Below are positions 9,440 to 24,560 of a DNA stretch of 64,000 nucleotides, in pieces. The notes under the pieces were generated by a model. The model searched no databases. It saw only the letters and a program-made list of their open reading frames with translations, and was not told the DNA's origin. The first letter of the stretch is position 1. Each line of letters begins with the position of its first letter. A program made the translations under genes and the position numbers. The stretch spans positions 62,001 to 126,000 of the forward strand of contig PGYM01000003.1 of assembly GCA_002839675.1 (NCBI GenBank), in the 5' to 3' direction. The DNA is from Methanomicrobiales archaeon HGW-Methanomicrobiales-1. GTDB lineage: Archaea > Halobacteriota > Methanomicrobia > Methanomicrobiales > Methanospirillaceae.

Positions 9440-10002
9440 AGCTGCTCACCCGCAAGAATCCTGCCGGATTGTATCCGCTCGAACAGCGGGCGGTCACGTG
9501 TACGGAGCTGAACTGCTTCTTCCGGTGAGACAATGATAGGAGAGATCTTCCGTGGTATATCCGGTTCATACCGTGAGATGAGATTTTTTACGGCAGAGCG
9601 ATCAGTTGATTCTATGTAGAGATCGATATCGCTCTCATCGGAATCTTCTCCCACCGCACAGCTGCCAAAGAGAATCATGCGTGTGATACAGGGTTGGCCG
9701 GCTGCAATGAACATTGAGAGTTCAAGCAGAGTTGCAAAAATTTTTGCTTCCCTAACGATCGGATGAGAGATATTGGCACGAAACAAGAGTGTCCTTCCTT
9801 TCTGTTCGCTGGTCACCAGACCCGATTCTGCCAGTGCCCGGAGCTGTCCGCTTGCCGAACCGGTACTGATTGAGCGTATCTTTGCGAGCTCCCGGACATA
9901 GTAGCTGTTCCGCGGGTGCCGGCCGAGGAATATGAGTGTCCCGAATGAGGGGGTTTCGAGCATGTTCATTTTTTTGAACATATGTTCAATATTATGAACC
10001 AT
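9436..10002 (-). CDS. Winged-helix HTH fused to an MNT nucleotidyltransferase
   Basis: 188 aa from the ATG at 10002 (ATGs at 9981, 9969 and 9963 are alternatives). Residues about 15-75 form a winged HTH (FGTLIFLGRHPRNSYYVREL, GSASGQLRALAESGLV, KGRTLLFRAN). Residues about 100-135 carry the nucleotidyltransferase site FGSCAVGEDSDESDIDLYI. A fusion of DNA-binding and nucleotidyltransferase domains suggests that the antitoxin-like subunit represses its own operon. Two palindromes (9974-9989 and 9988-10008) overlap the start region, where an autorepressor would bind. The frame stays open far upstream through the repeat array, but that extension is not supported. Confidence 0.88.
   Translation of the reverse strand: MVHNIEHMFKKMNMLETPSFGTLIFLGRHPRNSYYVRELAKIRSISTGSASGQLRALAESGLVTSEQKGRTLLFRANISHPIVREAKIFATLLELSMFIAAGQPCITRMILFGSCAVGEDSDESDIDLYIESTDRSAVKNLISRYEPDIPRKISPIIVSPEEAVQLRTRDRPLFERIQSGRILAGEQL
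9974..9989. promoter_or_regulatory. 16-bp perfect palindrome, operator candidate
   Basis: TTGAACATATGTTCAA is a perfect palindrome placed over the second possible ATG of the HTH-nucleotidyltransferase gene, next to a second palindrome. It is a likely binding site for the encoded HTH. Confidence 0.55.
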
Positions 10003-10008
10003 AATATT
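9988..10008. promoter_or_regulatory. 21-bp inverted repeat, operator candidate
   Basis: AATATTATG and CATAATATT are perfect 9-bp arms around AAC, overlapping the first ATG at 10002. With the palindrome at 9974-9989 it forms a compact double site at the start of the operon. Confidence 0.55.
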
Positions 10009-10056
10009 TAGGTATTTTGTCGTACCTGCCCGCTTATTCCCAATGTTTCCTTGCAA

Positions 10057-10771
10057 CCTCAATCCAAACTGCACAGTACTGGCATGTTTTACTCTCTTTA
10101 AAAACGGTTGATCTGCCAATACGGGCTGTTTTTTGAGGAATCCGGAAAGAACCGGCCGGGAAAACCACTTAACTGGCAGGTTGGGGTGACGGATCCTGGG
10201 AAAATACCTCCGCATTGAGCCCGGATTAGTGTATCCGGGTTGAGGGTATGGTGAGGCCGGGACGAACCTGAAAATAAGACGCGATAATTTCCGGAACCTG
10301 CATAAATCCAGATAATCTCCGGACCTCAATCCAAACTGCACAGTACTGGCATGTTTTACTCTCCTTAAAAACGGTTGATCTGCCAATCCGGGCTTTTTTG
10401 TGAGGAATCCAAAAAGAACCGGCCGGGAAAACCGACGAACTGGCAGGTCGGGGTGGCTGACCCGGGGAAAATACCTCCGCATTGAGCCCGGATTAGTGTA
10501 TCCGGATCGATGGGTTGGTGAGGCCCGGGCGAGCCTGAAAATAAGACGCGATAATTTCCGGAACCTGCATAAATCCAGGGAATCTCCGGACCTCAATCCA
10601 AACTGCACAGTACTGGCATGTTTTACTCTCCTTAAAAACGGTTGATCTGCCAATCCGGGCTTTTTTGCGAGGAATCCAAAAAGAACCGGCCGGGAAAACC
10701 GACGAACTGGCAGGTCGGGGTGACGGATCCGGGGAAAATACCCCCGTATTGAGCCCGGATTAGCGTATCCC
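10057..10771 (+). repeat. Tandem array of a 267-bp unit (copies B, C and partial D)
   Basis: The string CCTCAATCCAAACTGCACAG begins at 10057, 10324 and 10591, exactly 267 bp apart, and CCTGAAAATAAGACGCG recurs at 10267 and 10534. Two full units and about two thirds of a third are present. The first 180-190 bp of each unit also form the lone copy A at 8783. The period is a multiple of three, and the minus strand is open through it, but differences between copies change amino acids freely, so it is probably not coding. No other gene is visible in 10003-10851. Confidence 0.92.
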
Positions 10772-13687: not shown

Positions 13688-13750
13688 GAGTGTTCTTTCC
13701 GGAACAAAAAGCCACAAGTTGCCTGGACCGTGTGCGTATGGAGGGTCTGG

Positions 13751-13798
13751 ACGCTCAAAAGGGGCTTTTGCCCCCCGGCCAGCGTGGGCTTAGCCCCG
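13751..13798 (+). repeat. REP-like hairpin element, copy 1
   Basis: GACGCTCAAAAGGGGCTTTT then GCCCC, a short spacer and AGCGTGGGCTTAGCCCC. The family has the form GACGCTCAA-AGGGGC-n-GCCCC-TTGCCGCGTGGGCTTAGCCCC, giving one or two GC-rich hairpins. Other copies are at 14009, 15309, 16103, 19747, 20136 and 21554. Confidence 0.8.
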
Positions 13799-13813
13799 GC
13801 ATCGGGAGCAGTC

Positions 13814-14008: not shown

Positions 14009-14040
14009 TGCTCAAAGGGGGCTTTTGCCCCACAGCCCGC
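14009..14040 (+). repeat. REP-like hairpin element, partial copy 2
   Basis: CTCAAAGGGGGCTTTTGCCCC followed by a truncated right half. Member of the family described at 13751. Confidence 0.65.
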
Positions 14041-14093: not shown

Positions 14094-14339
14094 TTATAGT
14101 ACCCGCTGCTCTTCCTGTGACACGAACCGGTGGAAGTCCATGTAGTGAGGAACGGTATCCTCATGCGGCTTCATTTGCGCAAGAGTGAACCCCTTCTTCC
14201 GGTACCACTCAACTGCGCCGGGTTTGGAATCAACGGTAATGATCCGGCAGCCGGAAAATTGCGATACGTGCAGGACGATGATACCATTACGGCATTCACC
14301 GTATTTGGTATGAATGATTCCGATATCGCTGCTCAGTAC
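14094..14339 (-). pseudogene. C-terminal fragment of a GNAT-type acetyltransferase
   Basis: The minus strand encodes CRIITVDSKPGAVEWYRKKG then FTLAQMKPHEDTVPHYMDFH and RFVSQEEQRVL. The ITVDSKPGAVEWYRKKGF stretch matches motif B and the following strand of GNAT acetyltransferases (typically xxVDAxxxAIxFYExxGF). Motif A with the acetyl-CoA loop is missing, and no start codon is available; the 5' end runs into the RelE-like gene. The RelE/antitoxin pair seems to have replaced the first half of this gene. Confidence 0.65.
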
Positions 14340-14662
14340 CCGAATCTTCGTTCGTATTCCTTATGAGGCAGCCATTCCAGTACCAAGGCTATAACCTGCG
14401 TCCCGTCGCCCGCAACCGAATACATGAGCCGCCAGTTTTTATGAAAATTATATTTCCACAGGTTGTCTATCCCGTATTTCGTGATGTATAACTTTGGGAT
14501 TAATCGTTTAGGTACCTGGATCCCGCAAAAGGGATCTTTGGCGATCACATCGAATGCTGTATTCAGTTGTTCAAAAATCTCTTTTTCTTCCACCCTCCCG
14601 GACTGGAGCTTAAAAAAAGCATCGCTGACCTGGTCGTCAGCGAAGTAGAGGGCGGATTTCAT
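14333..14662 (-). CDS. RelE/ParE-like toxin
   Basis: 109 aa. The order of a helical N-terminus (FADDQVSDAFFKLQSGRVEE), a basic strand (VPKRLIPKLYITKYGIDNLW) and the C-terminal strands KNWRLMYSVAGDGTQVIALV and ending with EYERRFGY fits the RelE superfamily of ribosome-dependent mRNA interferases. The ATG overlaps the stop of the upstream antitoxin by 4 bases. Antitoxin-first order is the usual arrangement here, unlike the PIN modules. Confidence 0.82.
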   Translation of the reverse strand: MKSALYFADDQVSDAFFKLQSGRVEEKEIFEQLNTAFDVIAKDPFCGIQVPKRLIPKLYITKYGIDNLWKYNFHKNWRLMYSVAGDGTQVIALVLEWLPHKEYERRFGY

Positions 14663-14963: not shown

Positions 14964-15001
14964 ATTTGAGATCGGGATTGAGAAAAAGGAAATGGATAAG
15001 A

Positions 15002-15270
15002 CTTTTTTTGCGTTCAATTGTATCGCACTTTAAGATCCGCTGCCGAGTAGAGGTTGGGTTCATTTTTAAGAAATTCTAAAAAGGGTGTACTCCGGGAGTG
15101 CAGCAAGAGCATTCTTACCCTGCCCGTCCGGCTTTTTTTGTCGCGAAGGATTCTTTTTGCAGGATGTTCTGGGGGAGGCTGTGGGGCCGCTCCTGTCATT
15201 ATGGGTAGTTGTCTGTTTTGCGGGATGAGGTTTATGGTACCGGGAGACGTTTTGTGCGGAGATGGCGTGA
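15002..15270 (+). repeat. 270-bp dispersed repeat, copy 1
   Basis: Matches 22751-23026 along its whole length with roughly one change in eight. Shared strings include ATCCGCTGCCGAGTAGA, GTGCAGCAAGAGCATTCTT, TTTTTTTGTCGCGAAGGATT, GGGAGGCTGTGGGGCCGC and TCATTATGGGTAGTTGTCT. Both copies are in the same orientation and lie outside any gene. They bracket a 7.7-kb block with the PLD, HNH, HIT, helicase, MNT/HEPN and RNase III genes and PIN module 2. The rest of 14964-15452 contains REP copy 3 and an AT-rich leader to the PLD gene. Confidence 0.88.
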
Positions 15271-15308
15271 ATCCTCTGCACCAGAGAATTTTTAGGTTTG
15301 GGAGATTT

Positions 15309-15356
15309 GACGCTCAAAGGGGGCTGACGCCCCTTGCCGCGTGGGCTTAGCCCCCC
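15309..15356 (+). repeat. REP-like hairpin element, copy 3
   Basis: GACGCTCAAAGGGGGCTGAC then GCCCCTTGCCGCGTGGGCTT and AGCCCCC. It lies just upstream of the PLD gene; copy 4 lies just downstream in the same orientation. Confidence 0.85.
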
Positions 15357-15452: not shown

Positions 15453-16094
15453 ATGGCAAAATTTTTAGATGGCCCCGGGGTCCAGTCAGCATTTATCGAC
15501 ATAATTAAAAATGCTGAAAAAAAGTTGTTGATTATTTCGCCATACTTAAAAATCCCCATACAAACGAAAAATTATCTGAAAAGCATTGATAAAAAAAATG
15601 TTCCCATCGTGATCATATTTCGTTCGGGCTCAAAAATTGTGGATGACGATCTCTTATTTTTCAAATCATTGAAACATGTTACCGTAGGTCAATGTGAAAA
15701 TCTTCATTCAAAGTGTTATGTCAATGAAAAAGAAGGTTTGATTACATCGATGAATCTCCACGAACACTCCCAGACTCACAATTGGGAGATGGGGATTCGA
15801 TTTTCAAAACAGGCAGATCATGAAATCTATAGTGATGCCATCAAAGAATTGAAGCACATGGTTAGTCAGGCAAAACCGTTTACGCAGCGGCAGGGAAATT
15901 GTATCCGTTGCGGAACATCTGTTGAATTCAATCTCGACAAACCTCTCTGTAATTCCTGCTATTCAAGTTGGGCCCGGTACAAAAATAAAAATTATCCCGA
16001 GAAATTTTGTTACACCTGCGGAAGTAGCATTTCTCCGATATCTTTTGGTAAGCCGCTTTGTATGAAGTGCTCTGTGGTGCTTCAAAAGAAGTGA
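15453..16094 (+). CDS. PLD-superfamily protein with two C-terminal zinc ribbons
   Basis: 213 aa. An HKD-type half-site is present: H85 and K87 in NLHSKCYVNEKEGLITSMNL, with Ser99 and Asn101; Asp of the classic motif is Asn/Glu here. Single-HKD proteins act as dimers, often as nucleases. Two zinc ribbons follow (C150xxC153...C166xxC169 and C186xxC189...C203xxC206), probably binding nucleic acid. Base composition is distinctly AT-richer than neighbouring core genes, a sign of transfer. The gene is bracketed by REP-like copies 3 and 4 in the same orientation. A role in defence or DNA processing is inference. Confidence 0.85.
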   Translation: MAKFLDGPGVQSAFIDIIKNAEKKLLIISPYLKIPIQTKNYLKSIDKKNVPIVIIFRSGSKIVDDDLLFFKSLKHVTVGQCENLHSKCYVNEKEGLITSMNLHEHSQTHNWEMGIRFSKQADHEIYSDAIKELKHMVSQAKPFTQRQGNCIRCGTSVEFNLDKPLCNSCYSSWARYKNKNYPEKFCYTCGSSISPISFGKPLCMKCSVVLQKK

Positions 16095-16102
16095 ACTGAT
16101 CT

Positions 16103-16150
16103 GACGCTCAAAAGGGGCTCTGCCCCTTGCCGCGTGGGCTTGACCCCCGG
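16103..16150 (+). repeat. REP-like hairpin element, copy 4
   Basis: GACGCTCAAAAGGGGCTCTG then CCCCTTGCCGCGTGGGCTTG and ACCCCC. It begins 8 bp after the PLD gene. Confidence 0.85.
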
Positions 16151-16194
16151 AGTTTTATCAGCAAATAGAAAAAAGCAATATCATTCACGGACAT

Positions 16195-17358
16195 TTGTTC
16201 ACTATGCAATCGTTTGATCTCGAAAATTTCAAAACGATCAACACGATTATCGAGCGGGACAGCAAGGACACAACGTACAAATTTGCCCTGTTACGCGGGG
16301 TCATTGAGATCTCGCAGGAATACCAGCACCTGGGAAAAGAGTCCGGGGATCATGTCTCTCTCCCTCTTGGGCTCCTGATTGAGAAGTGGCTCCTGTACTA
16401 TTATCCCATCATTGAAAGTCAGGATTTTTTACCACAAATGCACGGAGAAAAAATTGATTCCGTCCAAAAAAGGATCTCCTTCCGTCCGCAGTTCAAGAAA
16501 GTGACGGATTATTATGCCGGAAAGGGTGGCTTTTCCGTCTTCTATAATGATTATGTGAATGGATCTATCCCTCCAGAAATTTCTTCCACATTCAGCGAAC
16601 TGATTGCAAAACTCAAAACCACCATCACAACTATGCCCATGAAACACCTGGGCCGCTCACACGGACACCGGGATTTTTCTATTTTTTCATATAACAATGA
16701 TGCCCGGAGAATCCCTGCCGGGACACCGGTCGATCAGGAATCAGTGGTACACTATTCCGGGACATTTTCCTTCCGGAATGATCTGTTCCTAGTATTCCAG
16801 TACCTGGGGAGTTTCATCTCGGGCGATGATTCACTGGTCTACCAATGGGCAGAATTTACGAGCAAGGCAAGCGGAGGAGCGGTCGCAGTTGCCTCAGTGA
16901 TGGAAACATTACGAACCCTGCCGGAAACCGACCGGGCGGTGCATGAGGCACGACAAGTCTATACGAAATTGTTCCAGAATTGTCACGCTCCTGAATGCGT
17001 CTGGTCGGGAAAGCCGATCAATGATATCGCGTTGCTCCACGTGGATCACATGATTCCCTTTGCGGTCTGGAAGAACAACAATCTCTGGAACTTACTGCCG
17101 GCACTGGAAAGCGTGAATGCAAAGAAACGGGATAAGATTCCCTCACCGGCGTTTATCGACAAGAGATCGGATGCGATTGTCACGTACTGGAACAGCATGT
17201 ACGAGATCTATCCCCGACGTTTTTCCCGTGAGATTAATCTCGCCCTTATCGGTTCACCGGAAAAGAGGCCCGGCTGGCAGGATATGGCAATCGAACTGCT
17301 TGGGGAGAGATGCGATTACCTCATCGAGGTCCGGGGGTTCGATGCATGGAGCCTGTGA
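16195..17358 (+). CDS. HNH endonuclease-domain protein
   Basis: 387 aa (ATG at 16204 is an alternative). The C-terminal HNH core is clear: a Cys pair C263 and C268, then LHVDHMIPFAVW with D284-H285, and N/H-type positions in NNNLWNLLPALESVNAKKRD near 294-313. The N-terminal 250 residues are helical and unfamiliar; they could recognise a target or partner. The 3' end overlaps the HIT gene by 13 bases, so the two products are made together. A restriction-type or conflict role is likely from the motif and surroundings, but the target is unknown. Confidence 0.87.
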   Translation: MFTMQSFDLENFKTINTIIERDSKDTTYKFALLRGVIEISQEYQHLGKESGDHVSLPLGLLIEKWLLYYYPIIESQDFLPQMHGEKIDSVQKRISFRPQFKKVTDYYAGKGGFSVFYNDYVNGSIPPEISSTFSELIAKLKTTITTMPMKHLGRSHGHRDFSIFSYNNDARRIPAGTPVDQESVVHYSGTFSFRNDLFLVFQYLGSFISGDDSLVYQWAEFTSKASGGAVAVASVMETLRTLPETDRAVHEARQVYTKLFQNCHAPECVWSGKPINDIALLHVDHMIPFAVWKNNNLWNLLPALESVNAKKRDKIPSPAFIDKRSDAIVTYWNSMYEIYPRRFSREINLALIGSPEKRPGWQDMAIELLGERCDYLIEVRGFDAWSL

Positions 17359-17723
17359 AGTGCCCGTTCTGCAATCCCTCCGCTAATGAAATCATTGCGA
17401 AAAACGATCTCTGCTATGCCCGCTGGGATCTTTACCCGGTCAGCAGGGGGCACCTGCTGGTGATTCCGTTCCGGCATACGCTGGATTTTTTCTCGATGAC
17501 TCCGGAAGAGAGGGTGGCTGTGCTTGCTTTGATCGATTCTTGTAAAGACGTGATCGAGGCGAAGTTCTCTCCTGCGGGGTACAACATCGGGTTCAATGTT
17601 GGTTTGGCAGGTGGGCAGACGGTGATGCACTGTCATTGTCATGTGATTCCGCGATATGTGGGGGATGTGCCGGATCCGAGAGGTGGGATCCGGGGGGTTG
17701 TTCCGGGGAAGAGGGGGTATTAA
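17346..17723 (+). CDS. HIT-family nucleotide hydrolase/transferase
   Basis: 125 aa. The histidine triad HCHCH lies at residues 95-99, preceded by GYNIGFNVGLAGGQTVMHC, and a zinc-type pair CPFC is at 6-9. HIT enzymes hydrolyse adenylylated or diadenosine compounds such as Ap4A and AMP-lysine. The ATG at 17346 lies inside the HNH gene and was preferred to one at 17310 because the CPFC motif marks the usual N-terminus. Coupling to an HNH nuclease suggests that it processes a nucleotide product or signal of that system; this is inference. Confidence 0.93.
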   Translation: MEPVKCPFCNPSANEIIAKNDLCYARWDLYPVSRGHLLVIPFRHTLDFFSMTPEERVAVLALIDSCKDVIEAKFSPAGYNIGFNVGLAGGQTVMHCHCHVIPRYVGDVPDPRGGIRGVVPGKRGY

Positions 17724-17761
17724 ATAATTTTTTAAGACCAAGCACCTTTCTCTCCCGCCGA

Positions 17762-19681
17762 CTATCCTTCAACCCATCCTTCATCAATAATAATACCCAC
17801 TCCCCCATCAGAAATCAACTCTTTCACCCCTGCCTCTTTCAATGCCTCGTACGTACTTTTCATTCCAATCTCATCTGGCACAAATATAATGAATCCATCC
17901 CGGCCCCGCGTCAACAATACACGGTAACTATTAGTGCGGAGCTGGTGAGGATCCTTTGCTTTATTCAACCGGGATTTCTTCGGGCTCTTCCAATGATCCT
18001 CATCCCATACAAAATCATTACCCCAACACACTATAGGAAAATCTAACTCAAGCCCCTGACATGAGAATTCCGTGACAACCTCGCGGAGTGAACAGCATGA
18101 TGAAAACGAATTTGGAGGGTCATTATACCATTGACCGACTCGGATGTTACGCGTACAATTCCAATCTGTATTGATTCCGAATCGCCCCAGATTTTTTGCC
18201 TTTGAAGATGCCATCAGCCCGAACCGGGTGTCATCTTCGCCAGCGTATCGCTCTCTCACATAATTGGCTGCGACATTGATGTCGTTCGTGACATATAGAT
18301 CAAAACCTTGACTGGAGAGATTCTCTGACAGCGCTTTTGCCCCTGCGAGATTATTCTCAAGCAATCGCTGCACCCAACGCGTTACATCTTCGGCAAGATG
18401 GGACCGAAGAGTAACATTCAGATCAAGAACAGGATTGATCTCACGGTCCGGAATTGCGGGGAATTTGTCAGCAATTTTATCAGGGCAATGGAGAATCCAT
18501 TTTTTCTGCATCTTCGATAATGCCGTATTCCATTGCGCTAGACCAGACTCTTCGCCAATGTGAATCTCCTGCCCTTCACCAATGAGAGCGACCATCAAGA
18601 CCCACGAGTTCATACGCTCGGCAAGTCGGAGGAAATCTTCCGGTTCGGATAATGTATGTTTTCGTTTCTCTTCGACACGGTCGGCATCCCACGCACGCTG
18701 CGCTTCATCAAAGATCCAGATATGCTCGTGAGGGAGCTTAGTTTTCGCTCCACCGTAGTCTTTTAGAAATCCGTGAACCGCTTGAACATAGAATTTATTT
18801 TTCAAAGCATGTTGCAGGACCTTGACGAGTGGGCCATTGCCGGAGAGAAAGACCGCATTGTTTCTGATCTCGGAGTTGTCAAGTTCGTTCTCATAGACAA
18901 GTTGAATCCCGACAAGTGTCTTGCCCGACCCGGGAACGCCGGTTACAAGCGCAAGATGGAGTTCGTTATTCTGTTTTGCCTTCCGTGCGATGGAGATAAG
19001 TTCAGCGATTGTTTTTGGAATACCGGCGCTCTCGGCACGATGGATTTTCTGCAATTTTGTCTTGTCATCCCAAAGTGTCTTTGCCGCTTTGATAAGCGAT
19101 GGGAGAGGAGCATAATCTGATTCGAGCCACTGTCGAGAATCAATGAGTGGCAATGAATTAGACCCGATGAGGTTTCCGAGAGAGATTCCGAGTGTATCAG
19201 CCGATACAATGGTTGTTCCGTCATACACCCGGTCAATATTTTTTGCTCGGGTTAATACAAGGATTGGGTGAATTATGTGTGTTTGTGATCCAGCATGATA
19301 ATAACGGAGATCCCGTGCATACGCATTGACCTGATCGACGTGTGCCGGTAAAATTTTCCGGTAATCTTTGAATTCAAGGACAAATATTGCCGATGAGCCA
19401 AGTATGATAACGTCAGGGCGTCTTCCCCTTTCGCGGGGTAATTCAAATTCAAAGATTATGGTGAAAGTACCAGTCACGGGTTTTACATGCACGAGGTTTT
19501 GTAACTCGGTATGGAGGACATCGAATGAGTGGGCCCATGCAGCGTGTTGGCTGTCGTCTGCCGGAGAATTCATGTTTTGTTGATGATGCTCATGGAGTGA
19601 GGTGAGCCATGCGGATTTATCTGTGGATAGGAAAGTGCTGATGGATCCAAACCAACCGCAGGGATCGTTATGAAGACTCAT
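17762..19681 (-). CDS. PD-(D/E)XK nuclease-DUF2075-type helicase/ATPase
   Basis: About 639 aa. Numbered from a TTG three bases before the ATG at 19681, a nuclease domain lies at about residues 70-130: RRPDVIILGSSAIFVLEFKD has D91 and E104-x-K106, and HVDQVNAYARDL the Q of the RecB-like subclass. A P-loop ATPase of the DUF2075/Schlafen-helicase type follows: GVPGSGKT at 249-256, IFDEAQRAW near 324-332, and a C-terminal TNSYRVLLTRGRDG helicase motif VI-like stretch. It is convergent with the HIT gene, 38 bp apart. Nuclease-helicase fusions of this kind are common in defence islands. A direct functional link with HNH-HIT is not shown. Confidence 0.88.
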   Translation of the reverse strand: MSLHNDPCGWFGSISTFLSTDKSAWLTSLHEHHQQNMNSPADDSQHAAWAHSFDVLHTELQNLVHVKPVTGTFTIIFEFELPRERGRRPDVIILGSSAIFVLEFKDYRKILPAHVDQVNAYARDLRYYHAGSQTHIIHPILVLTRAKNIDRVYDGTTIVSADTLGISLGNLIGSNSLPLIDSRQWLESDYAPLPSLIKAAKTLWDDKTKLQKIHRAESAGIPKTIAELISIARKAKQNNELHLALVTGVPGSGKTLVGIQLVYENELDNSEIRNNAVFLSGNGPLVKVLQHALKNKFYVQAVHGFLKDYGGAKTKLPHEHIWIFDEAQRAWDADRVEEKRKHTLSEPEDFLRLAERMNSWVLMVALIGEGQEIHIGEESGLAQWNTALSKMQKKWILHCPDKIADKFPAIPDREINPVLDLNVTLRSHLAEDVTRWVQRLLENNLAGAKALSENLSSQGFDLYVTNDINVAANYVRERYAGEDDTRFGLMASSKAKNLGRFGINTDWNCTRNIRVGQWYNDPPNSFSSCCSLREVVTEFSCQGLELDFPIVCWGNDFVWDEDHWKSPKKSRLNKAKDPHQLRTNSYRVLLTRGRDGFIIFVPDEIGMKSTYEALKEAGVKELISDGGVGIIIDEGWVEG

Positions 19682-19746
19682 CAATCAAGCATCTCGATTA
19701 CTGTAGGTAAGCCGGGATGAGTCAATAAAGATTCGCGTTTACCTTC

Positions 19747-19789
19747 CGGGGCAAGCCCACGCGGCTGGGGCATCAGCCCCATTGAGCGT
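19747..19789 (-). repeat. REP-like hairpin element, copy 5 (inverted)
   Basis: Reverse orientation: GGGGCAAGCCCACGCGGCTG then GGGCATCAGCCCC and ATTGAGCGT. It forms the left end of the 330-bp direct repeat. Confidence 0.8.
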
Positions 19790-19795
19790 AACTCC

Positions 19796-20014
19796 TCACA
19801 CCCCATCCCGCCGCATCTGGTACACCCGGTACCCGGAAAAACCCACACAAACAACAAACACCGCCAGGAAAAAATACCAGCCCGTATCAAGGGAGCACGC
19901 TTGCTTCCCGCCGCTCCACGCCACCCACTGGCTGCACTGCCACGGCGCAATGATAAGAAGATCCGGGAGACCAATAACGGACCCGATGAACGCGAAGTGA
20001 GAAAATCCCAACAC
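19796..20014 (-). CDS. Candidate 72-aa membrane protein carried in a duplicated block
   Basis: From a GTG at 20014: two hydrophobic segments (FAFIGSVIGLPDLLIIAPW and WYFFLAVFVVCVGFSGY) separated by a short loop with two cysteines, ending YQMRRDGV. No ribosome-binding site is visible. The same frame is present in the second copy at 21621 without its start. It may be a real small gene or a chance frame inside a repeat; conservation of the frame without indels between copies mildly favours coding. Confidence 0.4.
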   Translation of the reverse strand: MLGFSHFAFIGSVIGLPDLLIIAPWQCSQWVAWSGGKQACSLDTGWYFFLAVFVVCVGFSGYRVYQMRRDGV

Positions 20015-20135
20015 CGTGATATCTTTATTGAAAACCTATCCCTCTTATGTCCTCCGGGCGGGATCCGGCAATGCAGTCCTTGACGGAAATTTCCTGCGGC
20101 GTTAAAAGGACCGGTGTCTCCCGCCCGGGACCGGG

Positions 20136-20235: not shown

Positions 20236-20529
20236 ATGAAATCGAGGGAGGAGATTATGGATGCGTTGTCCGACCTGGCTGATGAGCTCAGGAAAAATTA
20301 CAAAGTCGAACGCATCGGCCTTTTCGGATCGTACGCACGGCAGGAGCAGCGCCCGGACAGTGACATCGATCTTCTGGTGGATTTTTCCGATGATGCTGAT
20401 CTCTTTGACCTGGCTGAGCTGAAATACTTCATGGAAGAAAAGCTACACCACCGGGTGGATATCGTACCCGCACGGGCTCTTCGCGACGAACTTAAACGAT
20501 CTGTGCTCGCTGATGTGAGTTATGTATGA
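20236..20529 (+). CDS. mntA: MntA-type nucleotidyltransferase antitoxin
   Basis: 97 aa. The active site [18 protein letters not shown] is at residues 31-48, with D43 and D45 as metal ligands. In characterised HEPN-MNT modules this enzyme attaches AMP to a tyrosine of the HEPN toxin and so silences it. The stop overlaps the ATG of the HEPN gene (ATGA). An ATG-proximal GGAACTGGTGAAGAA stretch provides the ribosome-binding site. The symbol is used by family analogy. Confidence 0.92.
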
Positions 20530-20864
20530 GGAGTTACCGGATCTATCTCCACGACATCATCGATGCAATGGAAAATATCGAAATATTTACTCACGGAATG
20601 TCTTTTGAGGAGTTCTGTGCCGATGCAAAAACGATCAGCGCTGTACGGGACAAGCTGATAGTCATCGGAGAAGCGGCAAAGCATATACCGGTGAAAATCC
20701 GGGAGAATCATCCGGAGATTGCCTGGCGGGACATGGCCGGAATGAGAGACATCCTTACTCATGCTTATTTTAAAACCGATCTGACAATGCTTTACAAGAC
20801 AAGCGTTATCAGGATCCCCCAGCAGAAACCGCTGCTCAAAAAAATGTATAGCGCAGACTCTTGA
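20526..20864 (+). CDS. hepT: HepT-type HEPN RNase toxin
   Basis: 112 aa. The catalytic RX4HXY motif is intact: R74, H79 and Y81 in [10 protein letters not shown]; in this family the tyrosine is the AMP acceptor. The C-terminus ([20 protein letters not shown]) is close to the usual IVWxTVxxDIPxLKPLI pattern. With the preceding MntA it forms a complete module, in contrast to the decayed one at 6960. It stands at the left of a cassette that also carries an RNase III-domain gene, all between 330-bp direct repeats. Confidence 0.92.
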
Positions 20865-21536: not shown

Positions 21537-21553
21537 CAACGAAATACGCAACC

Positions 21554-21600
21554 TCCGGGGGCAAGCCCACGCGGCAAGGGGCGGAGCCCCGTTGAGCGTA
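21554..21600 (-). repeat. REP-like hairpin element, copy 7 (inverted)
   Basis: GGGGGCAAGCCCACGCGGCA then AGGGGCGGAGCCCC and GTTGAGCGT. Left end of the second 330-bp repeat, as copy 5 is of the first. Confidence 0.85.
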
Positions 21601-21620
21601 AAATAAAAATCCCCGTATCC

Positions 21621-21824
21621 TCACACCCCATCCCCCCGCATCCGGTACACCCGGTACCCGGAAAAACCCACACAAACAACAAACACCGCCAGGAAAAAAT
21701 ACCAGCCCGTATCAAGGGAGCACATCTGCTTCCCGCCGCTCCACGCCACCCACTGGCTGCACTGCCACGGCGCAATGATAAGAAGATCCGGGAGACCAAT
21801 AACGGACCCGATGAACGCGAAGTG
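21621..21824 (-). pseudogene. Second copy of the 72-aa membrane frame, start lost
   Basis: The same 68 codons as at 19796-19999 (FAFIGSVIGLPDLLIIAPW and WYFFLAVFVVCVGFSGY) with no internal frameshift, but the 11-base deletion removes the in-frame GTG. Only a longer, different upstream frame could express it. Confidence 0.4.
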
Positions 21825-21999
21825 AACACCGTGATATCTTTATTGAAAACCTATCCCTCTTATGTCCTCCGGGCAGGATGCCGGGATTTTTGCGGGAAAA
21901 TGGGGGAGGTGCCGCCGTGATGGAGCTGACCGGGCGGTCGGGTGCTTTGTTATCTGATAACCGTACTGCTTTTCCGATATTTATGAAAAAAAGGATGAT

Positions 22000-22221
22000 T
22001 TATTCTGAACCAGAGACCGTTTTAGCCTGTTTCTGCATTTCAAAGATCTCGTTGCATATTTCATCGAGATCGTTACTGAGCCACTGCTTGCGCTCCTTGG
22101 TATAATCTCCCTTTCCGTGATCAAACATCTGAATGAAGCGGACCATGTCAACGGGACCAAGTGTCTTACGCAGGGCATCGATTCCTTCATCATGAATTTC
22201 ATGCAGTGTCTTCACTTTCAT
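22000..22221 (-). CDS. Small antitoxin-like protein of PIN module 2
   Basis: 73 aa, MKVKTLHEIHDEGIDALRKT, then GPVDMVRFIQMFDHGKGDYT and KERKQWLSNDLDEICNEI. About half of its positions match the protein at 12873. It overlaps the PIN gene by the same 23 bases. The C-termini differ: here helical and mixed in charge, in module 1 short and basic, which may give partner specificity. Confidence 0.75.
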   Translation of the reverse strand: MKVKTLHEIHDEGIDALRKTLGPVDMVRFIQMFDHGKGDYTKERKQWLSNDLDEICNEIFEMQKQAKTVSGSE

Positions 22222-22660
22222 TCCTGGTCACCTCCTCATACCATGCAGCAGGATTTACGATTCGTATAGAAATTATATCGCTGTGGTGGCTCATAATGTT
22301 TTTCAATGCGTCATCAGTCGTGACCAGGACCGTCGCACCTGCCCGTTCCGCACAGGCAATATGCAATGCGTCAAGGGCCTTTACTCCCAGCTTCATAAGC
22401 CCCGCAGCACGCTCCTTTATTGCCAGATCTACGAGAATATTTGTCGTCGTCTTTGCGGCGAAGGTGCTCACGTACCGTTTTCTATCGTGATCAACAATTT
22501 TGGCAACCTCATACGTGATTGCGGAACTCCAGATAAGTTCCCAGTCCCGGGAACACCGGTTCAGGATTGCAATGACGGCTTCGCTTTCATACCGGATTCT
22601 CGGTATAAGCTGGTCGTCAAATGGCCGGCACAGGCAGCACACGTCGAGATAGACTTTCAC
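22199..22660 (-). CDS. PIN-domain toxin (putative RNase), module 2
   Basis: 153 aa from GTG 22660 with AGGAGG five bases upstream. It begins VKVYLDVCCLCRPFDDQLIP, identical to module 1 over its first 16 residues, and carries KALDALHIACAERAGATVLV with the central acidic site. The two PIN proteins diverge in the middle. Toxin comes before antitoxin in both. Noncoding sequence downstream of both modules is also shared, so a block larger than the two genes was duplicated. Confidence 0.87.
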   Translation of the reverse strand: MKVYLDVCCLCRPFDDQLIPRIRYESEAVIAILNRCSRDWELIWSSAITYEVAKIVDHDRKRYVSTFAAKTTTNILVDLAIKERAAGLMKLGVKALDALHIACAERAGATVLVTTDDALKNIMSHHSDIISIRIVNPAAWYEEVTRNESEDTA

Positions 22661-22750
22661 ATACGCCTCCTGATTCAACCATTCTCTTCCGGAATCAATA
22701 AATGATTCTGTTTACGGGGGATGATTCTCAAACAGGAAAATGAACATAGG

Positions 22751-23026
22751 CCTTTTTTGCTTTCATGTATATCGCACTTTGCAATCCGCTGCCGAGTAGA
22801 TGTCGGGTTCATTTTCAAGAAATTCTAAAAAGGGAGTACTCTTCAAAGTGCAGCAAGAGCATTCTTTCCCTGCCCGTCCGACTTTTTTTGTCGCGAAGGA
22901 TTCTTTTTTGCAGGATGAACCGTGGGAGGCTGTGGGGCCGCCTTCGCTGTCATTATGGGTAGTTGTCTATTTAACGGGATGAGGTTTGTGGTACCGGATG
23001 GACCTTTTGTACGGGGATGGCGTGAC
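22751..23026 (+). repeat. 270-bp dispersed repeat, copy 2
   Basis: Match to 15002-15270 in the same orientation. It lies between PIN module 2 and the DUF1016 gene. Remaining sequence in 22661-23214 is AT-rich with no gene; a 30-bp piece of the 330-bp repeat end occurs near 23099. Confidence 0.88.
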
Positions 23027-23214: not shown

Positions 23215-24333
23215 TCAACTCCCACCAGCATTTTCTGACCATTCAATCAATTTTCTCTTCAGTTCTTCTTTTGAAGGCAGGTAGAGCTGATACTGGGAAG
23301 CGTAAATGTTTGCATCTTCTGGCAGGGTGAGCCTGACGAGGGCATCATTCTTTGTCTTGCAGAGAATAATTCCAATAGTCGGGTTCTCGTTATCGAGTTT
23401 TACTTCGCGATTATAATAATTGACATACATCTGCATCTGGCCGAGGTTCTCATGCGTGAGTTTTCCGATCTTGAGATCGATCAGGACATAGCACCGGAGA
23501 ATCCGGTTGTAGAAGACAAGATCCACAAAAAAATTGTCGGCATCGAAGGTGAACCGCTTCTGCCGGGATTCGAAAAGAAAACCTTTGCCGAGCTCCAGCA
23601 GGAAAGTTTCGAGTTTCCCGATAATCGCTGATTCCAAGTCGTTTTCGGAGTAATGTTCTTTCTCATCGAGACCGAGGAATTCGAGAACATAGGGATCTTT
23701 GAGCACGTCCTGCGGATTTCCGATAATCTGTCCTTTATCCGCGAGGGATTTCACTCCTTGTTTATCCCGGCTGAGGGCGAGCCGTTCGTAGATTCCTGAG
23801 TTGAACTGCCTTTTTAGTTCGGAAAGTGACCATTGGTTTTGTCCGGATTCTATTTCGTAAAACCGGCGTTCGTCCCGGTTGTCGATATTCATGAGGAAGA
23901 TGTAATGGGACCAGCTGAGGGTGAAATGGGGTGTCAATTTTGCAGACAGTGTCTGCATAATTGGCGTTTCCGTCGGTATTTTGGCTGGCAATTCCCCAGA
24001 CCCTGTCTGGGAAATCTGGGGGATGGTCTCGCGATATTCGATATAAAAGTCGCGCATGTATCTCAAATTTCTCGTCGAAAACCCTTTCCCAACCTCATGG
24101 GTCAATCGCTGTGAAAGTTCATCGAATATTCGCTCCCCGTATTCCGCCCGTCTGTTTCCCTGTTGTTCATACTCCACGATCCTCCGGCCAATCTGGAAGT
24201 TGGTGCTGACCTGCAGGGTGTTTATGTTCTGGCTGGCGGTCCTGCGTGCGCTTTGTACCAAATCCCGGATCTCTTTAACGAGAGGATGGAGGGGTTCTCC
24301 GGGAGGTTTTACTCTTTGGGTCCTGGGTTTCAT
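23215..24333 (-). CDS. DUF1016 (YhcG-type) PD-(D/E)XK nuclease family protein
   Basis: 372 aa from an ATG at 24333. The N-terminal DUF1016_N helical region (VKEIRDLVQSARRTASQNIN, YWxIG-like NFQIGRRIVEYEQQ, FSTRNLRYMRDFY) is followed by the catalytic C-terminal domain: EFLGL, then FDADNFFVDLVFYNRILRCY and VLIDLKIGKL with D and DxK-type residues. Such proteins bind and cut DNA and occur near restriction-modification and defence genes. The linker holds an unusual insertion encoded by DNA palindromes at 23941-23957 and 23992-24010. No restriction-modification genes are adjacent. Confidence 0.88.
   Translation of the reverse strand: MKPRTQRVKPPGEPLHPLVKEIRDLVQSARRTASQNINTLQVSTNFQIGRRIVEYEQQGNRRAEYGERIFDELSQRLTHEVGKGFSTRNLRYMRDFYIEYRETIPQISQTGSGELPAKIPTETPIMQTLSAKLTPHFTLSWSHYIFLMNIDNRDERRFYEIESGQNQWSLSELKRQFNSGIYERLALSRDKQGVKSLADKGQIIGNPQDVLKDPYVLEFLGLDEKEHYSENDLESAIIGKLETFLLELGKGFLFESRQKRFTFDADNFFVDLVFYNRILRCYVLIDLKIGKLTHENLGQMQMYVNYYNREVKLDNENPTIGIILCKTKNDALVRLTLPEDANIYASQYQLYLPSKEELKRKLIEWSENAGGS
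23941..23957. repeat. 17-bp palindrome inside the DUF1016 gene
   Basis: TGCAGACA-G-TGTCTGCA, perfect arms, encoding MQTLSA on the minus strand. A second, imperfect palindrome with the core CAGACCCTGTCTG lies 45 bp away (encoding SQTGSGE). The latter core matches the 25-bp palindrome at 13663. Confidence 0.5.
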
Positions 24334-24363
24334 GGTTGAATCGCGTTCCTTATCCAGTGTGTC

Positions 24364-24405
24364 GATACTCATGAGGATAAGGAACCCGGTTGGCGGGGTG
24401 AAAGT
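24364..24405 (+). repeat. 40-bp element shared with 13565-13605
   Basis: GAGGATAAGGAACCCGGTTG then GCGGGGTGAAAGT. It sits about 30-70 bp upstream of the DUF1016 start, as the other copy does upstream of PIN module 1. Confidence 0.6.
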
Positions 24406-24560
24406 GATTGGTCGACACTTTATCAGGGGCTTTGACGGGAACGAGGGAGCCGGAGATTTTTCTGTTATCCGGGAGTACAGATTATGAAAAATTTCCAGCC
24501 GGGGTATACCATACGGTTCAATGCCGGTACGGGTGGGCCGGGCCACATACGTGAAGCGAC

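Follow-up and report, generated by a model that had tools for sequence, protein, structure and literature searches.

A gene pair encoding HNH and HIT proteins spans archaea and Bacteroidota and is probably a little-noticed antiviral system

The type IV enzymes ScoMcrA, SprMcrA and EcoWI are phosphorothioate-dependent endonucleases of the SBD-HNH and SBD-SRA-HNH types, in which a sulfur-binding domain (SBD) is combined with an HNH nuclease domain. The sulfur cavity of ScoMcrA involves R117, which is a lysine in most homologues, as well as P165, Y164 and H116 (PMC6224610). The signature of the SBD has been given as 'HR or HK and YP', and dnd genes lie near SBD-HNH genes in less than 3.6% of cases (PMC7461809). 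In Thoeris type II, the HIT protein ThsC was proposed by the PADLOC authors to act as an off-switch (PMC8565338). Here we describe a pair of HNH and HIT genes in Methanomicrobiales archaeon HGW-Methanomicrobiales-1, whose genome of 2.47 Mb is 97.7% complete. The pair lies in a stretch of 64,000 nucleotides (assembly GCA_002839675.1, contig PGYM01000003.1, positions 62,001 to 126,000 of the forward strand), which as a whole is referred to as the window. Its two genes overlap by 13 bases and are convergent, by 38 bp past the HIT stop codon, with a gene for a nuclease-helicase (Table 1), which confirms the coordinates of an original prediction that had proposed a conflict system at this site.

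Conservation of the HNH-HIT junction and exchange of the partner

A profile search of GTDB contigs with the HNH protein revealed about 400 relatives, and pair statistics were taken from the best 80 loci, which belong to methanogens, Bacteroidota, Ignavibacteria, Balneolota and Bathyarchaeota. Immediately downstream of the HNH gene, 63 of these loci carry a HIT gene, four a gene for a nucleoside triphosphate pyrophosphohydrolase (NTP-PPase) and 13 neither of the two. At 46 of the 63 HNH-HIT loci, an ATG is located exactly 13 nt before the end of the HNH stop codon, as is the case here. The overlap lies on the codons for a C-terminal 'AW' (GCATGG here), so that protein sequence and start codon can stay conserved jointly, and judging from this arrangement the two genes are likely translationally coupled. 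Abutting HNH and HIT coordinates are also present in 19 order-level genomes including this one, with the HNH gene intact or nearly so. Thus, the pairing is far beyond chance and spans archaea and Bacteroidota, that is two domains of life, and HNH-HIT is almost certainly a conserved module. The doubt attached to the original prediction, that the junction might be peculiar to this site, is thereby removed. Both genes are intact here and evolve under purifying selection, as indicated by dN/dS ratios of 0.10-0.12 for HNH and 0.18-0.20 for HIT relative to the two closest intact pairs. The open reading frame of HNH covers 16195-17358 (+) when the alternative start TTG at 16195 is used; we prefer the ATG at 16204 since aligned relatives begin at the equivalent ATG.

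Several observations weigh against a defence module of this general kind. The sample of the best 80 loci is skewed to close relatives, no HIT gene adjoins HNH in distant cyanobacterial and Deinococcus relatives, the HIT of the Methanoregula lineage groups with unpaired HITs, and some Bacteroidota copies have housekeeping genes around them, as at locus L162, where the copy follows an ATP synthase gene. Loci L133 and L159 have the same arrangement, as inferred from their layout, with no obvious island. In Algoriphagus, the upstream genes (~290 and 525 aa) were considered as modification genes and rejected: Pfam identifies the 291-aa product as an ATP synthase subunit, and the cluster was therefore taken as ATP synthase genes. 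Copies broken by frameshifts or stops, as is typical of non-essential genes, occur in genomes G501, G169, G198, G223 and G509. Carriage of HNH-HIT by phages or viruses was likewise dismissed, as there was no phage record and viral contigs gave two distant matches only.

The partner of the HNH protein is exchangeable. In family f6, in Bathyarchaeota and on one Hymenobacter plasmid, HIT is replaced by a PRA-PH-like NTP-PPase ('VRDKIPEII' proteins). In f6 this partner was seen at L062, L063, L064 and L067 as well as downstream of a decayed HNH copy in L068, while on the Hymenobacter plasmid HNH stands between the gene of a helix-turn-helix protein upstream and, at a distance of 3 bp downstream, that of a 'nucleoside triphosphate pyrophosphohydrolase'. 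At 36 loci, mainly in Bacteroidota, an S-adenosylmethionine (SAM) methyltransferase heads the HIT protein (~288 aa). Its best specific curated relative is TIGR04096, labelled 'DNA phosphorothioation-associated putative methyltransferase' (E=5.5e-16 over the first 80 positions). In proteins from proteobacterial plasmids, it is the N-terminus of HNH, rather than HIT, that bears a SAM methyltransferase.

Further variation was observed on the HIT side. The HIT protein directly after HNH at L103 (9117-10088) has an unannotated C-terminal extension of ~200 aa. In genomes of genus g14 (Methanocalculus), HIT genes or fragments that are closely related to one another form arrays of as many as nine, with small toxin-antitoxin-like and PIN genes in between (Table 1); only one HIT adjoins HNH. 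These arrays look like a local duplication or recombination hotspot.

Domains of the HNH protein

The C-terminal half of the HNH protein is, by its sequence, a Cas9-type HNH nuclease with an intact active-site motif. A Pfam scan returned HNH_4 (PF13395) above the cut-off (E=3e-8), an NCBIfam scan returned Cas9 HNH only, and comparison of profile hidden Markov models (HMMs) matched this half to Cas9 HNH structures. The motif residues D281, H282, N296 and N305 are invariant in 78 relatives. In a fold search with the full-length model, the solved structures nearest to the nuclease half were those of Cas9 HNH (Z up to 6.7). The likeness to Cas9 concerns the HNH domain; in contrast to Cas9, the protein of the HNH-HIT pair has neither RuvC nor a guide, and the nuclease superfamily alone is common to both.

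Structures were predicted with AlphaFold2 from an alignment of genome loci only, plasmid rows being excluded, and reached a predicted local distance difference test score (pLDDT) of 90 for the whole protein and of 89 for the N-terminal domain alone. The latter was modelled by itself because Cas9 HNH filled the fold search of the full-length model. In this case, the search yielded five rows above Z 3.4, all of them SBDs of ScoMcrA and SprMcrA (5zmm and 7ccj, Z 6.8; 7ccd, 6.5; 5zmo and 5zmn, 6.0), with 134-141 residues aligned, and the next, unrelated row had a Z of 3.4. As these matches represent one family, cover the domain and stand clear of the rest, we read the N-terminal domain as SBD-like, and the model makes it probable that it has this fold. 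The first 250 residues, which had appeared unfamiliar from the sequence, thus have a predicted SBD-like fold (Z 6.0-6.8).

This assignment has to be set against several results. The SBD matches have Z<8, rmsd (root-mean-square deviation) of 5.6-6.3 and identities of 7-9%; Foldseek alone gives the SBD match at a non-significant E>1; profile-profile comparison of the N-terminal domain with SBD-HNH proteins was not significant; and the model NF045808 (PT-DNA_restrict) had no match in this genome at E<=1e-5. An HMM search of the domain against PDB sequences likewise gave no relevant match. Profile-profile comparison thus gave no proof of kinship with SBDs, the motif register alone being in agreement: the best local hhalign alignment sets TYKfALLR on APHKPlLLL, the H116-R117 motif of ScoMcrA, at Prob 1.6% only. 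K26, which lies in this best-conserved motif, is in register with the SBD sulfur-contact motif [H][R/K]P..LLL. In the alignment of 78 relatives, K26 and P68 are found in 78/78 and P77 in 76/78, and the protein described here has Y25-K26 and Y67-P68. The H of the SBD motif is replaced by Y25; these counterparts are read from the sequence register, in which that of P165 is either P68 or P77. A distant match to the N-terminal domain is located within a 1228-aa open frame of another genome (G091:C1:161137-161844), which suggests that the SBD-like domain occurs there within a larger fusion protein.

Gene neighbourhood

Table 1. Positions of the HNH-HIT pair and accompanying features in the window, and of HIT arrays in genus g14.
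Feature	Position	Strand	Remarks
HNH protein, 384 aa	16204..17358	+	predicted N-terminal SBD-like fold (residues ~5-239) and C-terminal Cas9-type HNH (~245-378)
Codons for residues 24-31, TYKFALLR	16273..16296	+	best-conserved N-terminal motif; K26 invariant
HNH 3' end/HIT ATG, 13-nt overlap	17346..17358	+	same offset at 46/63 HNH-HIT loci
HIT-family nucleotide hydrolase/transferase, 125 aa	17346..17723	+	PF01230, E=1.8e-21, above cut-off; triad HCHCHVI
SLFN-g3 (DUF2075) helicase with N-terminal nuclease-like domain	17762..19684	-	convergent; separate gene
Single PLD (HKD) domain with double zinc ribbon, DrmC-like	15453..16094	+	5' of HNH, same strand
G+C-rich dispersed repeat copies	13745-13800, 14010-14040, 15308-15355, 16100-16154, 19741-19791, 21550-21601	both	
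HIT array of g14, G193:C2	L042 9539-9823; L043 3346-3840, 4284-4610, ~5450, 9757-10185; also L055, L056		

The PLD gene upstream of HNH matches PF13091 (E=5e-9), DrmC profiles (5e-6) and the NCBIfam model DISARM_DrmC_I (6e-6); it is the only DISARM-like match in the window, a weak one, and the core genes DrmA, DrmB and DrmMI or MII are not beside it. Relatives of this gene stand 5' of HNH on the same strand in seven order genomes (G228, G106, G159, G443, G365, G487 and the present one). Across the order genomes, it co-occurs with HNH in 15/49 vs 15/182 genomes (Fisher p=1.5e-4, uncorrected for kinship). We regard it as a probable third component and as a better candidate for this than the convergent helicase, which matches PF09848 (SLFN-g3 helicase, formerly DUF2075; E=3.8e-76), has a weak NERD/HSDR_N nuclease match at its N-terminus and is itself a predicted single-gene defence candidate (PADLOC PDC-S41, E=4e-140).

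The original prediction had also pointed to SF2-helicase/PLD/DUF3427 proteins with HIT or NUDIX domains. Such genes do recur beside HNH relatives: a PLD-SF2 helicase-DUF3427 gene adjoins HNH-HIT at L060, L063, L069, L109, L141, L146 and L154. At L109 and, judging from the layout, at L146, HIT and helicase are separated by a NUDIX gene. DUF3427 PLD-helicases are enriched in order genomes carrying HNH (20/49 vs 25/182, p=7e-5). This part of the proposal holds for the family and not for the present genome, in which DUF3427 (PF11907) is absent.

Genes around HNH-HIT frequently resemble defence genes. PADLOC families numbered 256 among 93 neighbours and 51 among 93 control proteins, which were drawn from arbitrary positions in ten genomes of the order and in eight Bacteroidota carriers; these are family counts rather than gene counts and hence indicative. 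The neighbour matches include PbeA, DruE and type I and type IV restriction models, and further neighbours are DrmE (L044) and YprA-type helicases that carry the zinc-binding domain of MrfA. By inspection, JetA/JetC (Wadjet)-like genes lie behind HIT at L124, and a PAPS-reductase-like gene does so at L110. DUF4007 was rejected as a general upstream partner, being full-length at L134 and L123 only and fragmentary at L125, L126 and L137. DndC scored above the cut-off in 1/35 carrier genomes and not in this one, which rules out self-phosphorothioation by co-occurring DndC for nearly all carriers and is in line with type IV enzymes attacking foreign modified DNA.

In the window, the region around HNH-HIT looks like a toxin-antitoxin/defence island, as it contains a YhcG/DUF1016 PD-(D/E)XK nuclease (23215-24546; PADLOC PDC-S02), a PIN-domain gene (22199-22678) and a weak YoeB/ParE-like gene (14333-14662). 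An MNT/HepT-type nucleotidyltransferase toxin-antitoxin pair is encoded at 20236-20864 (PF01909, PF01934). A G+C-rich dispersed repeat (CTCAAAGGGGCT..GCCCC..GCGTGGGCTTAGCCCC) occupies intergenic sites on both strands, including positions just 5' of HNH and beside the helicase. A sequence of ~250 bp is present in two diverged copies (86-97%) at 14999-15243 and 22748-22997, spaced 7.75 kb, and 19793-20064 is duplicated at 21618-21879 (98%).

Possible functions and comparison with known systems

With both active-site motifs intact and relatives in defence islands, the pair is probably defence-related, as had been supposed, and a role in defence by DNA restriction is likely. The account that we favour, and consider reasonably probable, is that HNH-HIT is a compact mobile defence module, in which a modification- or backbone-sensing HNH restriction enzyme is coupled to a nucleotide hydrolase. 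By analogy, the SBD-like head would read a backbone feature or modification on invading DNA and position the HNH domain to nick or cut, as in ScoMcrA, SprMcrA and EcoWI. Phosphorothioate is the closest precedent, and that it is the actual mark is a tentative suggestion drawn from this analogy. The HIT partner would hydrolyse a small nucleotide, most likely clearing a nucleotide signal or abnormal nucleotide by which the nuclease is controlled or accompanied. This is suggested by the fact that the folds of HIT and of the PRA-PH-like enzyme are unrelated and that both have the chemistry of nucleotide phosphoanhydrides in common; as the substrate of HIT, a free nucleotide appears a slightly better guess than DNA ends. 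In a bolder version, HIT, NTP-PPase or methyltransferase-HIT would serve as interchangeable hydrolases that control a backbone-reading nuclease, in a new form of immunity gated by a small nucleotide. This version is speculative and rather unlikely; if true, such a gated restriction system would extend to hundreds of species of archaea and bacteria.

Some of the same evidence could be read differently. The fixed gene overlap, the exchange of HIT for an unrelated nucleotide hydrolase and the addition of the HIT gene ThsC to Thoeris type II, with its proposed off-switch role (PMC8565338), would also fit nucleotide signalling, with HNH as a toxin-like or signal-gated effector whose activating or restraining nucleotide is degraded by HIT or NTP-PPase as an off-switch or antitoxin enzyme. 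We consider this improbable, because neither a cyclase nor a TIR signal producer emerged among the conserved neighbours and the predicted SBD-like fold suggests DNA rather than a ligand pocket. A third role for HIT would be aprataxin-like processing of 5'-adenylated ends left by ligase at HNH nicks, with the methyltransferase capping ends. HIT chemistry can indeed take off adenosine monophosphate adducts, methyltransferase fusions exist, and a nuclease partner leaves ends. However, the PRA-PH-like NTP-PPase that replaces HIT is from a family not known for end processing, and aprataxin has a DNA-binding zinc finger, which the minimal HIT protein described here lacks, so that such end repair is distinctly less probable still.

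That HIT is a housekeeping gene which merely follows HNH in this genome finds some footing in the fact that it is the sole HIT gene here and that, in the HIT tree, it falls into a clade with unpaired Methanoregula HITs, paired and unpaired ones of this lineage sharing one clade (100/92); for these two reasons, the HIT at this locus may have been taken over from a housekeeping gene. At least six changes between paired and unpaired labels are needed on well-supported branches of the tree, and this pattern implies that partner HITs were probably exchanged with resident ones at least once. As a general account, chance adjacency is contradicted by the recurrence of the junction at 63/80 loci across several phyla, and genomes of Methanoculleus have an unpaired HIT in addition to the paired one, the two falling into separate clades; we therefore deem it very unlikely. 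The least credible proposal is that HNH, HIT and the facing PD-(D/E)XK/SLFN-g3 helicase form one system, as first envisaged from the 38-bp convergent layout and made attractive by the helicase being itself a predicted defence gene (PDC-S41). A homologue of the helicase was found at no other compared HNH-HIT locus, which contradicts the proposal and places the helicase outside the unit.

PADLOC, Pfam and NCBIfam hold no model for the pair or for the HNH protein over its length, and no description of the pair was found in the literature searched, in which coverage of subscription papers is limited. With Thoeris type II, HNH-HIT shares the addition of a HIT gene to a defence operon (ThsC, PDLC00441, E=1.2e-10); it differs in that the partner is an HNH nuclease and no ThsA or ThsB match is present among ten window proteins scanned. 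The Dnd/Pbe-associated sets (HKD-SF2 helicase TIGR04095, methyltransferase TIGR04096) resemble it in the related methyltransferase domain and the PLD-helicase at some HNH-HIT loci, whereas 34/35 carriers are without DndC above the cut-off and the HNH-HIT unit stands alone. PLD-SF2 helicase-DUF3427 genes adjoin several HNH-HIT loci, but they are absent from this genome and are not obligatory partners. In HNH-HIT, we thus have a two-gene unit for asking why nucleotide hydrolases (HIT, NUDIX, NTP-PPase) recur beside restriction-type nucleases, and the replacement of HIT by a hydrolase of unrelated fold turns a common substrate into a testable question.

The SBD-HNH and SBD-SRA-HNH endonucleases are similar in having an N-terminal SBD, which the predicted fold here resembles, in front of HNH, in the sulfur-contact motif, in whose register the invariant lysine lies here, and in carriers that mostly lack dnd genes. 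They differ in that the HNH-HIT protein has no significant sequence similarity to them, is unmatched by NF045808, carries Y instead of H before the lysine, has an N-terminal domain of ~240 vs ~158 residues and a Cas9-type HNH_4 domain, and is coupled to HIT or NTP-PPase. We regard HNH-HIT, probably a little-noticed antiviral system, as a variant of restriction by modification-dependent HNH enzymes in which a nucleotide hydrolase is the partner, and as a possible member of the phosphorothioate-dependent family. With it, the known range of SBD-like DNA readers would come to include archaea and a different class of HNH nuclease.

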